Source: Prevotella sp. (lineage in GTDB: Bacteria; Bacteroidota; Bacteroidia; Bacteroidales; Bacteroidaceae). Taken from it: a stretch of DNA of 64,000 nt. This document shows, piece after piece, positions 45,620-49,678 of this stretch. A program made the position numbers and the translations under genes. The stretch covers positions 20,236 to 84,235 of the forward strand of contig JAFUFJ010000021.1 of the NCBI GenBank assembly GCA_017469955.1. The letters run 5' to 3'. The notes beneath the pieces were generated by a model, which worked only from the letters and a program-made list of their open reading frames with translations, was not told the origin of the DNA and made no database searches. Positions within the stretch are counted from its first letter, which is position 1. Each line of letters starts with the position of its first letter.

Positions 45620-45857
45620 TTCCATGAATGCCCCGAAAACGGCTGTTTTCAGCGCCTAAAGCCTTCTTTTCCTATAGCACTTCAACAGCCGGCCATGCTG
45701 AATTATCACAACATTCCTGCTCTTTTCCACCACCCCCAGAATGCCCTTCGCTGACCGGTCAGACAGTAAGTCTATGACCTTCTTCTGCAAAAAAGACGCC
45801 TCGGAGGGTATTGTTTTCGTTCGTTCATGCGTTATATAGTTAAAGAAGCGACGAAAT

Positions 45858-47462
45858 ATGGTCTACAACGAACAACAATTTGGCGAACTCTTCACGGCTC
45901 ACTATGAGTCGTTGCTCGGGCAAGCCCACGCGATGCTGGGCGACAAAGAAGAGGCTCGCGACGCTATAAGCGACGTGTTCGCCCGCCTATGGCACCAGAA
46001 CGTGGCCGGCACGCTGCTCATTCCTCTTGACGATGGGGCGGAAAGGTTCCTCAGACTGGCCGTGAAACGGGCGTGCATCGACGTGCTGCGCAAGCGTAAA
46101 TACCGGCGGGCATGGCGCGAAAAGCTGACGCCCGACGACCTCTTTGCCGACGAACCAGCCACAAGAGAGGAACAAATGGCACAGGTAGAGCAGCTCATGC
46201 AGACCCACCTCACTGAGCAAGACCGCCGTGTGCTCTCGCTCGTTTACGACGAGGAACAGACCTATCGAGAGGCAGCTCAGCACCTGGGCATCAGCACTTC
46301 GGCCGTCAACAAGCATGTCACTCAGTCGCTGCGCAAGCTGCGTCGCTTAGCCATCATGCTGGCATTGCTGGCCGGAGTGGCCACGGCAGCTGTCATTACC
46401 ATCAGGCATGCCTCACGAAACACGTCCGAGAACACCGCGCCGTCACCTCAGGAAACGCCCCTGATCAAGGCCGTTTCTGCCGATGATGAACAGCCTGCCG
46501 ACAGCGATTCTGTCGCAACAACCGTGACCGTTCCTGTTGAAAAACCTGCTGTTCCAACCCTGCGCGAACGCCTGGCAACAATGCCAGAGAGCGTCACTGT
46601 CGTGGCCAACAAGCATGCCGACGAGCCTATAACCCGCCTGCAGCTGGACGACTTGCTGCGCCGTTACAACATCGTCAGTGTCGATACTCTGCCCGACAAG
46701 GGGCTCAGCCTGAACACCATCCACAAGAATGTGCTGCGCATCACTACCCATCGGCGGTCAGAAGAGACGAGGCACCTGAACCTCTTGTCGTGGTATCCAC
46801 GACTGGTTTCGGTAGAAGGAACCGTCAGCGGAGGCCCGATTTTCAACGGGAAACCGCTCAACAATGCCACCATCAACGTGAGCTATCACAACGACAAGTG
46901 GCAGGCTGCCACCGACGGCTACGGCCGATTCTCGCTGACAATCCCACGCGGAGCGCGCGTCACTTTCAGCCATCCTGGCTCGCAATCTTATTCGTTCCGC
47001 GCGAAAAAAGACAAGAGCCGGCTCGACATCCGGCTGAAAGACCAGGCACACCTGTCGATGGTCATGCCCGACTTGCGACTGCTGTCACGGGCCGACATTA
47101 TCTATATCAACGGACGACAGGCCAGCCCCGAGGAGGTGAAGGCGCTGCCTTGGCAAGATATTAAGACAGCCGACTTCAGCAGTTTCATGACCGCTCACGA
47201 GAACTATCACGACCATTTCTGGGCGATTATCGGCAAGGTTGTCGACGAAAACACGGGCAAACCCGTCGCAGGAGTAGCAGTCAGCACGTCGGCATGGCAC
47301 TCGAACGACCACAGCTATTGGGTCTTTACCGACCTTGAAGGACAGTTTGCCATCCGCACAACCGGCTCCGGACACATCTACACCGAGGCCAAAGGCTACG
47401 CACCTTCGTGCACCGACATCACCGAACACAACGAATATATCATCAAAATACATCAGCAATGA
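45858..47462 (+). CDS. ECF sigma factor fused to membrane span and extracytoplasmic carboxypeptidase-regulatory/plug-like domains
   Basis: Single chain of 534 residues. Residues 1-80 form sigma region 2 (FTAHYESLLGQAHAMLGDKEEARDAISDVF) and about 112-163 region 4, with the HTH TYREAAQHLGISTSAVNKHV and LRKLRR. A membrane span follows directly (about 164-182, LAIMLALLAGVATAAVITI), preceded by positive charges so that the sigma part is cytoplasmic. After a Pro/Ser/Thr-rich linker (183-235) come a CarboxypepD_reg-like beta-sandwich (about 317-395, VEGTVSGG, TDGYGRFSLTIPRG), a stretch resembling TonB receptor plugs (IIYINGRQASPEEVKALPWQDI) and a second CarboxypepD_reg-like domain (456-530, GKVVDENTGKPVAGV, TDLEGQFAIRT). 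No separate anti-sigma gene is adjacent. It overlaps the next gene by ATGA. Confidence 0.88.
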   Translation: MVYNEQQFGELFTAHYESLLGQAHAMLGDKEEARDAISDVFARLWHQNVAGTLLIPLDDGAERFLRLAVKRACIDVLRKRKYRRAWREKLTPDDLFADEPATREEQMAQVEQLMQTHLTEQDRRVLSLVYDEEQTYREAAQHLGISTSAVNKHVTQSLRKLRRLAIMLALLAGVATAAVITIRHASRNTSENTAPSPQETPLIKAVSADDEQPADSDSVATTVTVPVEKPAVPTLRERLATMPESVTVVANKHADEPITRLQLDDLLRRYNIVSVDTLPDKGLSLNTIHKNVLRITTHRRSEETRHLNLLSWYPRLVSVEGTVSGGPIFNGKPLNNATINVSYHNDKWQAATDGYGRFSLTIPRGARVTFSHPGSQSYSFRAKKDKSRLDIRLKDQAHLSMVMPDLRLLSRADIIYINGRQASPEEVKALPWQDIKTADFSSFMTAHENYHDHFWAIIGKVVDENTGKPVAGVAVSTSAWHSNDHSYWVFTDLEGQFAIRTTGSGHIYTEAKGYAPSCTDITEHNEYIIKIHQQ

Positions 47463-48868
47463 AACTCACATTCCGACTCATCCTTTCGCTGACAGCTGTC
47501 CTTTCAGCTGTTGAACAGGCCTCAGCACAGGCCTTTACCATCGATCCTCAACCCCGGGAAGGCACACTTGTCTCGCGCAAAGAGGGCGTCCTTGGCAGCA
47601 TCGTCTATACCTTTGGAAACGGAGCCCGGGCTGCCTTCATCCCGACAACATTCTACAATCAGCCCGTCGACATTCGCGGACTCAAGCCAGGAGGGCTCAG
47701 TCTCTTCGGCGAAACCGACCGCCATGCGGCCTGCATCGTCGACGAAATCGTAGCCAAAAGCTCGCTGGGGCCCTACACTTGTGACGACATTCAGGAGCTG
47801 AACAACAGCGAAGGCCTCTTTTTCGAACGGCACATCGAAGACTATTACGACAGCTTCTATGCCCGCAGCAAGCCCGAACAAGTGGAAGACATCCTACGGC
47901 TCATCTACCTTTCGGCCACACAAGCCCACACCGACACAGTGGGTATTCTGAAGGGTTTCGAAGCCTTCAGCAAGAGAATCGAGTTCAGCCACGTATTCTT
48001 CTTTCAACAGGCTCTGAACGATTCGGCAGCCGTCATGAAGAGAAACGGAATCCTTCGCAAGGCCTTGCCCAGCGAAACACTGAGAGCACTCAATGCCGAT
48101 CCCGAACGATTCATTGCCGTCGGCCAGCGCGCCTTTGAGCTTTACCGGCAGCACATGGACAACTTCTGCGGCTTCACCCTTTGCATTGGCGGTGCCATTC
48201 GGGAGGAATCACTGCTGCCACTCCTGCTCAAATACATCGCAACGCTGCCCTCCAAGCAGGTTGCCGACAGCTATTGCGTGAGTGAAAGCGACAAGTTCTG
48301 CCCCACCGACCGCAGTATTTTCATCGAGAACGACAGCGCAAACATCAATGGTTTGCGGATGATGTTCGTGCAGACGGAGGACGTTTCCTACGACGGAGCG
48401 AACCACTTCCTGCAGGAAGCCTTCACGAAAGTGGCTCAAGACAAGCTGCGTCGTCTCTGCAAAGGGATTGCCGAGGTCACCTTTTATGTAAGCGGTGCCG
48501 ACTTCATCCTGCCCCAATCCGGCGTACAACTCAATGTATCAATGAGCATGGAGACCGATGTCGATCCGGCGGAAATGGCGCAAGACGTGAGAAAAGCCAT
48601 CAGGCAGATTGCCGACGGAGACTTCGACACTGCAGCACTGGAAGCCTATCAGCAGGGCATCTACAGAGGCTATCCACAGTGGAACTCAACCAATGCCTTC
48701 AAGATTTTCTTGCTCCGGCGCTACTATCACGACGGAGAAGTGGAGCTCGACCGGGACGTCTATCGCACGGTAAAGGCCATCATGCCGGCCGACATACAGC
48801 GCTTTGCCCGCAACCTGCTGGAGAAAGGCCACGTCTATCTGGCTGCAATGCGCAAGAACACCCATTGA
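47459..48868 (+). CDS. Secreted M16-like pseudopeptidase (PqqL C-terminal-half type)
   Basis: Periplasmic protein of 469 residues with a signal peptide (MKLTFRLILSLTAVLSAVEQASAQA). The sequence VYTFGNGARAAFIPTTFYNQP, RGLKPGGLSLF and the VEDILRLIYLSATQ segment match the C-terminal half of M16 insulinase-type peptidases such as PqqL. The zinc motif HxxEH is absent, so it should not be catalytic by itself; in M16 enzymes such halves help form the chamber or dimerise with an active half. Its start overlaps the sigma-fusion stop by ATGA, which implies coordinated synthesis and a role in the same pathway. Confidence 0.8.
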   Translation: MKLTFRLILSLTAVLSAVEQASAQAFTIDPQPREGTLVSRKEGVLGSIVYTFGNGARAAFIPTTFYNQPVDIRGLKPGGLSLFGETDRHAACIVDEIVAKSSLGPYTCDDIQELNNSEGLFFERHIEDYYDSFYARSKPEQVEDILRLIYLSATQAHTDTVGILKGFEAFSKRIEFSHVFFFQQALNDSAAVMKRNGILRKALPSETLRALNADPERFIAVGQRAFELYRQHMDNFCGFTLCIGGAIREESLLPLLLKYIATLPSKQVADSYCVSESDKFCPTDRSIFIENDSANINGLRMMFVQTEDVSYDGANHFLQEAFTKVAQDKLRRLCKGIAEVTFYVSGADFILPQSGVQLNVSMSMETDVDPAEMAQDVRKAIRQIADGDFDTAALEAYQQGIYRGYPQWNSTNAFKIFLLRRYYHDGEVELDRDVYRTVKAIMPADIQRFARNLLEKGHVYLAAMRKNTH

Positions 48869-48913
48869 CAGACCGCCAAGAAGAAAACAACAAATCTATA
48901 AATTGACAGACAC

Positions 48914-49417
48914 ATGAAACAGAAACTATTCATCATCGCCGTCCTGACGGCAATCCTTCCAGCCGTTGCCCAGGCGCAATCGTTCACCATGCAGCAGAAA
49001 GATTCGCTCGGCATCTACTTCGTTCCCGACCAGCTTCCGCAATATCCAGGGGGCAACGAGGCCATGCAACAGGACATCATGAAGCAGCTCGGACAGCTCG
49101 ACTTAGGAGAGATGCACCGCTTAGGACTCTCGATGACGCTCACGCTCTCAATGGTGATCGACGAAAAAGGACGCGCCGGCAGCTTCGCACCTCACTGGAT
49201 GCTCGTGCGCCCGGCTCGCGAAACACTGCCATCAACAGAAGAAATCGGCGAGGAAGCAGCCCGCGACGTGCTCACGAAAGAACGGCTGGACGGCTTTCAA
49301 TCGGTCATCTACGAGGCAAGCACGAAGACCTTTGGCAGCCACATGAAGCGGTGGAAACCGGCACGGCACAAGGGAAAGAAAGTGAAATGCCACTATACCA
49401 TTCCGCTCAGGTTCTGA
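48914..49417 (+). CDS. Secreted TonB C-terminal-like protein
   Basis: Periplasmic protein of 167 residues with a cleavable signal peptide (MKQKLFIIAVLTAILPAVAQAQ). The mature part resembles the Bacteroidota TonB C-terminal domain: LPQYPGGNEAMQQDIMKQL at the start, LSMVIDEKGRAG in the middle and MKRWKPARHKGKKVKCHYTIPLRF at the end. The usual TonB membrane anchor and Pro-rich spacer are absent, so it cannot span the periplasm as an energy transducer. It follows the M16-like gene by 45 nt and closes the operon. It may bind the plug-like segment of the sigma fusion; this is inference. Confidence 0.78.
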   Translation: MKQKLFIIAVLTAILPAVAQAQSFTMQQKDSLGIYFVPDQLPQYPGGNEAMQQDIMKQLGQLDLGEMHRLGLSMTLTLSMVIDEKGRAGSFAPHWMLVRPARETLPSTEEIGEEAARDVLTKERLDGFQSVIYEASTKTFGSHMKRWKPARHKGKKVKCHYTIPLRF

Positions 49418-49515
49418 CGTTCACGGGCTCTTCCAGCCTGAGAAACAGCAAGAAAGGAACCCGACAACCGCCGCTTTTCCTACACATCATGACAACCAAC
49501 GGCAGGAAAGGCAAA

Positions 49516-49578
49516 GCAAAACATCATCTATTGCCGGACAAAACATCATCTATTACCCGGCAATAGATGATGTTTTGC
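49516..49578. repeat. Palindromic element with three GCAAAACATCATCT copies
   Basis: A 22-bp arm starting GCAAAACATCATCT (49516-49537) is exactly complementary to 49557-49578; a direct third copy CAAAACATCATCTATTACCC lies between them (49539-49558). The core matches the palindrome at 3270-3304. It lies between the sigma-fusion operon and alaS and may act as terminator of the former. Confidence 0.8.
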
Positions 49579-49678
49579 TCCTGCAACCCTGCCCTTTCTG
49601 CCCGACAACCCTCAACCGGGAAATCGCTATTTTGCTCATTTAACAGGGAAATTGCACCCTGTTTTCATATTTTCTTCG

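Follow-up and report, generated by a model that had tools for sequence, protein, structure and literature searches.

A putative one-polypeptide sigma switch in Prevotella: an ECF sigma factor fused to a membrane span and a CarboxypepD_reg-bearing extracytoplasmic part

We analyzed a stretch of 64,000 nucleotides from a Prevotella sp. genome (GenBank assembly GCA_017469955.1, contig JAFUFJ010000021.1, positions 20,236 to 84,235 of the forward strand), hereafter called the window, in which a single open reading frame joins an extracytoplasmic function (ECF) sigma factor, a membrane span, and an extracytoplasmic part. Sequence comparison indicates that this fusion is genuine and conserved in two genomes. 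It is fairly probable, judging from the sequences and by analogy with known systems, that the protein couples an ECF sigma factor with the span and extracytoplasmic sensor of an anti-sigma-like protein from which the cytoplasmic sigma-binding tail was lost, and that the sigma factor would be silent at the membrane, be freed by proteolysis, and drive its own operon. An initial annotation, made from the letters of the window alone, had described the one-frame architecture, and the coordinates, frames, profile matches, and hydropathy all agree with it. The parts of the protein are as follows (pLDDT, predicted local distance difference test).

45858-47462, forward strand: sigma-fusion open reading frame, 534 residues
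45858-46346, forward strand: ECF sigma domain, residues 1-163 (profile matches; 60% identity to the second fusion genome, RUG12198)
46347-46403, forward strand: single membrane span, residues 164-182, with no linker behind sigma region 4 (hydropathy)
46404-46580, forward strand: low-complexity linker, residues 183-241, probably disordered (model pLDDT mostly below 50)
46833-47048, forward strand: CarboxypepD_reg-like (transthyretin-like) domain 1, about residues 326-397 (second stretch of the Pfam match; sub-threshold SusC N-terminal match at 330-397; beta-sandwich in the model)
47226-47447, forward strand: CarboxypepD_reg-like domain 2, about residues 457-530 (Pfam; Foldseek)

The sigma part consists of regions 2 and 4 only, with no region 3, as is characteristic of ECF sigma factors, and it matched the NCBIfam sigma70-ECF superfamily with 70.1 bits (cut-off, 42.9) and Pfam Sigma70_r4 with 44.5 bits (cut-off, 24.1). 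The span was located by a hydropathy scan. The two CarboxypepD_reg-like domains proposed initially were recovered by Pfam as one match in two stretches (E 3.8e-14). For domain 2, a structure model with low confidence overall gave Foldseek matches to, among others, the N-terminal-extension domain of SusC BT3090 and the transthyretin-like domain of carboxypeptidase D. Pilins, the top Foldseek matches of the second model, were discarded (root mean square deviation above 11), and only single-domain matches were used. A plug-like stretch (IIYINGRQASPEEVKAL) had also been proposed and was not confirmed: Pfam gave no Plug match there at E 1, and the model pLDDT in this stretch is mostly below 50.

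The second genome, RUG12198 (uncultured Prevotellaceae, G339), carries a protein 42% identical across residues 1-517, with an alignment that extends across the span and includes both CarboxypepD domains. The fusion is not a chance product, because the second genome preserves the full length of the frame at this identity, which likewise rules out a frameshift artefact at the sigma-membrane junction. Two of the doubts that the initial annotation had raised about itself, such an artefact and the absence of the fusion from all relatives, are answered by this genome. Between the two proteins, the sigma part shows 60% identity (97/163 positions) and the remainder 34% (125/364), and the sigma domain is thus the better conserved portion of the fusion. 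This difference argues against the idea that the fusion is degenerating or lacks sigma activity and that the protein acts in the envelope instead, which we regard as quite improbable. In its favor, Pfam Sigma70_r2 scores 23.1 bits in the window protein, slightly below the cut-off of 24, and the fusion is kept in two genomes only, but region 2 of the orthologue reaches 38.2 bits, well over the cut-off, and a promoter element shared with related systems (see below) is retained.

The initial annotation held that such modules normally sit in separate proteins. The nearest sigma relatives of the fusion (loci L048-L075 and L097-L125) are indeed separate proteins of ordinary length, although the fusion is less new than had been thought, since IutY and Dma3 (discussed below) precede it. 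We examined 57 of these two-gene sister loci with about 1.5 kb per side (5 without a recognized sigma open reading frame and 2 without a downstream one), many of which stem from genomes close to one another and cannot count as independent cases. The downstream gene starts with a DIDKKIGMPDVDxEW-like motif, followed by a membrane span, in 49 of the 50 called loci (49/57 overall), a count made up of 48 by the strict pattern plus L049, read by eye, in which one letter differs. The called downstream gene of L074 is without this conserved cytoplasmic motif, and the strict pattern is present somewhere in 55 of the 57 loci. Of five partner proteins scanned, four had TonB_C and all five had CarboxypepD_reg-type matches, some below cut-off. 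By its position, the cytoplasmic tail of the partners is probably an anti-sigma, sigma-binding part; a sigma-binding cytoplasmic tail before the span is described for classical cell-surface signaling anti-sigma factors (PMC5411451).

A profile of this tail and span matched all four control genomes at E <1e-26 and found nothing at E 10 in either fusion genome (75.6% complete for the window genome and 81% for RUG12198). In both window-type fusions, 0 residues lie between region 4 and the span. No anti-sigma gene adjoins the window fusion, as the initial annotation had stated; its neighbors are M16-like, TonB_C-like, and alaS-like genes (the last recognized by eye). An unlinked anti-sigma factor might still control the sigma factor, with the fused part only localizing it. 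Such a gene could be missing from genomes of this completeness, and other anti-sigma families were not searched for, but the sister-motif profile (0/2 fusion genomes versus 4/4 controls) speaks against this explanation, as do the sister loci, in which the candidate was sought next door and found there in 49/50 called cases. We therefore consider it unlikely.

The fusion gene is preceded by a promoter-like element.

45806-45835, forward strand: predicted autoregulated ECF promoter, GGGTATT-N17-CGTTAT, 22 nucleotides before the ATG, with the same arrangement at RUG12198

At RUG12198, the element lies 26 nucleotides before the ATG. An exact search for GGGTATT-N17-CGTTAT gave a single match per fusion genome, before the fusion gene; elsewhere, there was one in G463 (plus one reversed-control match) and none in G262 and G426. 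Among the two-gene loci, GGGT[AG]TT-N15-20-GTCT occurs within 150 bases of the ATG in 45/47, with N18 in 44, and the same pattern was found in 31 of 2000 random 150-base pieces of these loci, true sites possibly included. The strict two-gene pattern has exactly one occurrence, ahead of the sigma gene, in each of five genomes among nine searched and is absent from G290, G038, the window genome, and RUG12198, with zero matches of the reversed control in 9/9; G290 and G038 have the promoter element with an altered -10 part. The sister promoters differ from that of the window (GTCT at N18 versus CGTTAT at N17), and the -35-like element is common to the window fusion and its nearest two-gene relatives. 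The retained -35-like element suggests that the window fusion is autoregulated; looser promoter recognition would widen the regulon. The two-gene family (L048-L075 and L097-L125) also displays a strongly conserved promoter-like element, GGGGTATTT-N17-GGTCTTATA.

Several points weigh against the reading of the window protein as a sigma factor fused to the sensor of a tail-less anti-sigma-like protein. The fusion is rare: of 398 genomes sampled from the genus, with three candidates per genome scored, two have it (the window genome and RUG12198), and of 301 sampled from the family, with four candidates per genome, the window's own was the sole full match. When the extracytoplasmic part was used alone as the query, only the window's own genome was found among 201 family genomes; a first scan of genome contigs gave no fusion match, and a second gave RUG12198 and one unrelated sigma factor from a Gemmatimonadetes record. 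Both fusion genomes are incomplete assemblies (that of the window is 2.26 Mb in 22 contigs), and the two structure models of the window protein reach mean pLDDT values of 52.9 and 57.6, which mark low confidence. Anti-sigma profiles gave no match to the tails of the sister partners, which bear the anti-sigma label by position only. Furthermore, the window sensor part resembles a sister partner in one CarboxypepD domain only (hhalign, 63%), and because this is a common domain, the resemblance does not show that the sensor part descends from such a partner. Finally, the promoter was first recognized by eye, and the promoters recovered by the search patterns had themselves served to build those patterns; what is informative is that the -35 element is shared and that further exact matches are lacking.

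The principle of a one-polypeptide sigma/receptor fusion is already known from IutY, ECF48/52/53, and Dma3. IutY of Pseudomonas putida (ECF243) is one polypeptide with the sigma factor up to residue 168, followed by a span and an extracytoplasmic anti-sigma part (PMC5411451; PMC8999054), and the window protein shares this topology. IutY senses through a FecR-type domain and pairs with the TonB-dependent receptor IutA, whereas the window protein has CarboxypepD_reg domains, no Pfam match to FecR_C, and no neighboring receptor gene; IutY-type membership was rejected. The actinobacterial groups ECF48, ECF52, and ECF53 (e.g., SCO4117) also have a sigma factor fused to a span and an extracytoplasmic part but keep a zinc-finger anti-sigma domain between sigma factor and span (PMC8999054). 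Within the Bacteroidota, Dma3 of Bacteroides thetaiotaomicron has a sigma domain at the N terminus of an envelope-spanning Dma protein (PMC13088901). The window protein has a sigma domain at its N terminus, as the published description gives for Dma3. Dma proteins end in an outer-membrane beta-barrel, but Pfam found no outer-membrane beta-barrel family in the window protein at E 1, and its C terminus is a CarboxypepD_reg domain; Dma membership was rejected on the lack of a barrel. Of the span and disordered tether of Dma proteins, the window protein has the span, and its residues 183-233 have pLDDT below 50 in a low-confidence model. The sister systems have the nearest sigma domains, the shared -35-like element, and partners bearing CarboxypepD_reg and TonB_C, although sigma factor and partner are separate genes there and the partner has a cytoplasmic tail. 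What is new, as far as sequences tell, is the domain combination and the comparative evidence for repeated inhibitor-less sigma-membrane fusions in this bacterial family. A search of a literature collection lacking most subscription journals found nothing on the window protein or on such fusions in Prevotella.

In the mechanism that we favor, the placement of region 4 right against the membrane would keep the sigma factor inactive. Some event outside the cytoplasm would make the sensor part accessible to a site-1 protease, after which cleavage of the span by an RseP-type site-2 protease would free the sigma factor to transcribe its own operon (the fusion, an M16 half, and a TonB_C-like protein), forming a positive loop. 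IutY, with the same topology, is reported to be activated or released by Prc and RseP (PMC5411451), and both fusion genomes have a strong match to an M50 (RseP-type) protease gene, a near-universal family that was matched in 14/14 control genomes as well. Given the topology shared with IutY and the presence of an M50 gene, proteolytic release of the window sigma factor, as proposed in the initial annotation, is plausible, whereas the accompanying signal chain through M16 and TonB_C periplasmic partners is not upheld (see below). Another explanation is that the sigma factor works while still membrane-bound, the sensor part altering its activity without cleavage; ToxR- and CadC-type regulators act in the membrane-bound state. 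The fusion needs nothing else for tethering, cleavage is deduced here by analogy, and the IutY sigma domain is reported to be tightly membrane-associated even alone (PMC5411451). Nevertheless, IutY activity is abolished without RseP in the same report, and with no linker between region 4 and the span, the binding of promoter DNA and RNA polymerase would probably be cramped. Activity from the membrane thus seems to us improbable in comparison with release.

In a tree of 46 sigma domains, the two window-type fusions group together (100/100) and then with 28 two-gene sigma factors (95/83). Fusions of the sigma-span-FecR_C type sit in another clade, alongside an unfused sigma factor of the window genome, and the Dma3-like sigma-span-barrel protein L128, from another genus of the family, lies far from the window sigma factor and groups with another unfused sigma factor of the window genome. 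Because the three fused types fall in separate clades with unfused sigma factors, at least three sigma-membrane joinings are the simplest reading of this tree. The tree program flagged long branches, chiefly in the FecR_C types and neighboring sequences, and for the FecR_C type itself one joining that later split would formally also fit. The linker between region 4 and the span measures 0-6 residues in 10 of 11 fused sigma factors of the three types and 12 in the eleventh.

At least 8 of 200 genus genomes carry a full sigma-span-FecR_C fusion. The FecR_C match of the fused proteins varies (above cut-off in P0011, below it in P0012, and none in P0010), and an alignment of seven proteins shows the same region. 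The FecR_C system of the window genome itself (L156 4913-5927) is made up of two genes, one for a 164-aa sigma factor and one for a protein of 175 aa in which a cytoplasmic tail of 57 residues is followed by a span and FecR_C. Five relatives, syntenic with L156, carry one sigma-span-FecR_C gene without the tail.

L088 1888-2754: fused sigma-span-FecR_C locus
L089 1752-2582: fused sigma-span-FecR_C locus
L090 1713-2546: fused sigma-span-FecR_C locus
L091 7065-7892: fused sigma-span-FecR_C locus
L094 858-1727: fused sigma-span-FecR_C locus

Compared with L156, the downstream flanking gene is common to all five fused relatives (83-85% identity) and the upstream one to four of them (81-84% identity), being not detected in L090. 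A promoter-like element, GTTAGCATTT-N12-TGTACTAT, precedes the sigma gene in L156 and the five fused relatives, with a GGTAGC variant in L091; three fused loci from other parts of the tree (L093, L095, and L135) gave no match to this pattern.

Two loci concern the barrel type. L128 2187-3707, which came to light when 3 more genomes were screened for fused sigma factors, encodes a sigma factor, span, and outer-membrane beta-barrel in one protein, with Pfam sigma and barrel matches above cut-off and an architecture as reported for Dma3. L155 1395-3177, in the window genome, has a separate sigma gene followed by a gene for a protein ending in an outer-membrane barrel and looks like a two-gene Das/Dma-type pair.

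Downstream of the window fusion, the following features were recognized.

47459-48868, forward strand: secreted M16-like protein corresponding to the C-terminal half of M16 peptidases, which lacks HxxEH (ATGA overlap with the fusion; alignment)
48914-49417, forward strand: secreted TonB_C-like protein without a membrane anchor (hhalign; Pfam below cut-off)
49498-49596, no strand assigned: imperfect inverted repeat between the three genes and the next gene, a possible transcript end (49-nucleotide arms, 76% complementary; inner 19-nucleotide arms, 95%)

The signal peptides of genes 2 and 3 were read by eye. Gene 2 had been annotated as an ATGA-coupled M16 half without HxxEH, in agreement with its start at 47459. 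In 10/10 loci compared, which were drawn from 29 relatives (L003-L031), it aligns with long M16 proteins over their C-terminal half, HxxEH being located at residues 47-84 of those proteins; the ten frames reach an end of their stretch, so that their lengths are minimal. In 150 genus genomes, frames of 594-1089 aa were found among the matches listed, versus 509 aa for the window frame. Gene 3 scored 15.6 bits for Pfam TonB_C, under the cut-off of 24.6, and its annotation as a secreted TonB-C-like protein holds nonetheless, since hhalign aligned it with TonB_C-bearing partner proteins from related loci at a probability of 95% (E 3.6e-8). The sister partner P0006 had 21 matches in the window genome; gene 3 matched at E 8.7e-5, and several other sites scored better, down to 1.1e-10. 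Because TonB_C-like domains are common in this genome, a specific (Rosetta-stone) link of gene 3 to the sister partner was not borne out and is kept only as a weak one.

At RUG12198, a secreted CarboxypepD_reg-serpin protein (L076 7606-9081; serpin E 1.2e-94) is encoded 21 nucleotides behind the fusion, and the next gene encodes an HMA-domain protein. A conserved three-gene system is therefore ruled out, and since this genome has other genes in their place, neither the M16 half nor the TonB_C-like protein is a fixed partner, contrary to the dedicated role first assigned to them. The M16 half and the serpin are both proteolysis-related, which suggests at most a role at a site-1 protease. In the IutY system, an unknown component has been suggested to shield the sensor part (PMC5411451).

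Very tentatively, and with considerable doubt, we propose that Bacteroidaceae-type sigma/anti-sigma pairs may repeatedly have become one-piece switches, in which the cytoplasmic inhibitor was lost, region 4 was joined straight to the span, and the bare junction is the off-state. The window type might then serve essentially its own operon, whose secreted products (the empty M16 half and the RUG12198 serpin) would act on the site-1 protease and set the threshold of the loop. It is this comparative case for repeated inhibitor loss that adds interest to the window protein, and the two-gene L156 system and its five fused relatives, with the same promoter-like element, form a natural before-and-after pair. 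If the membrane junction alone silences the sigma factor, an anti-sigma domain would be unnecessary for regulation, and the one-piece switch would be movable between hosts as a single gene.

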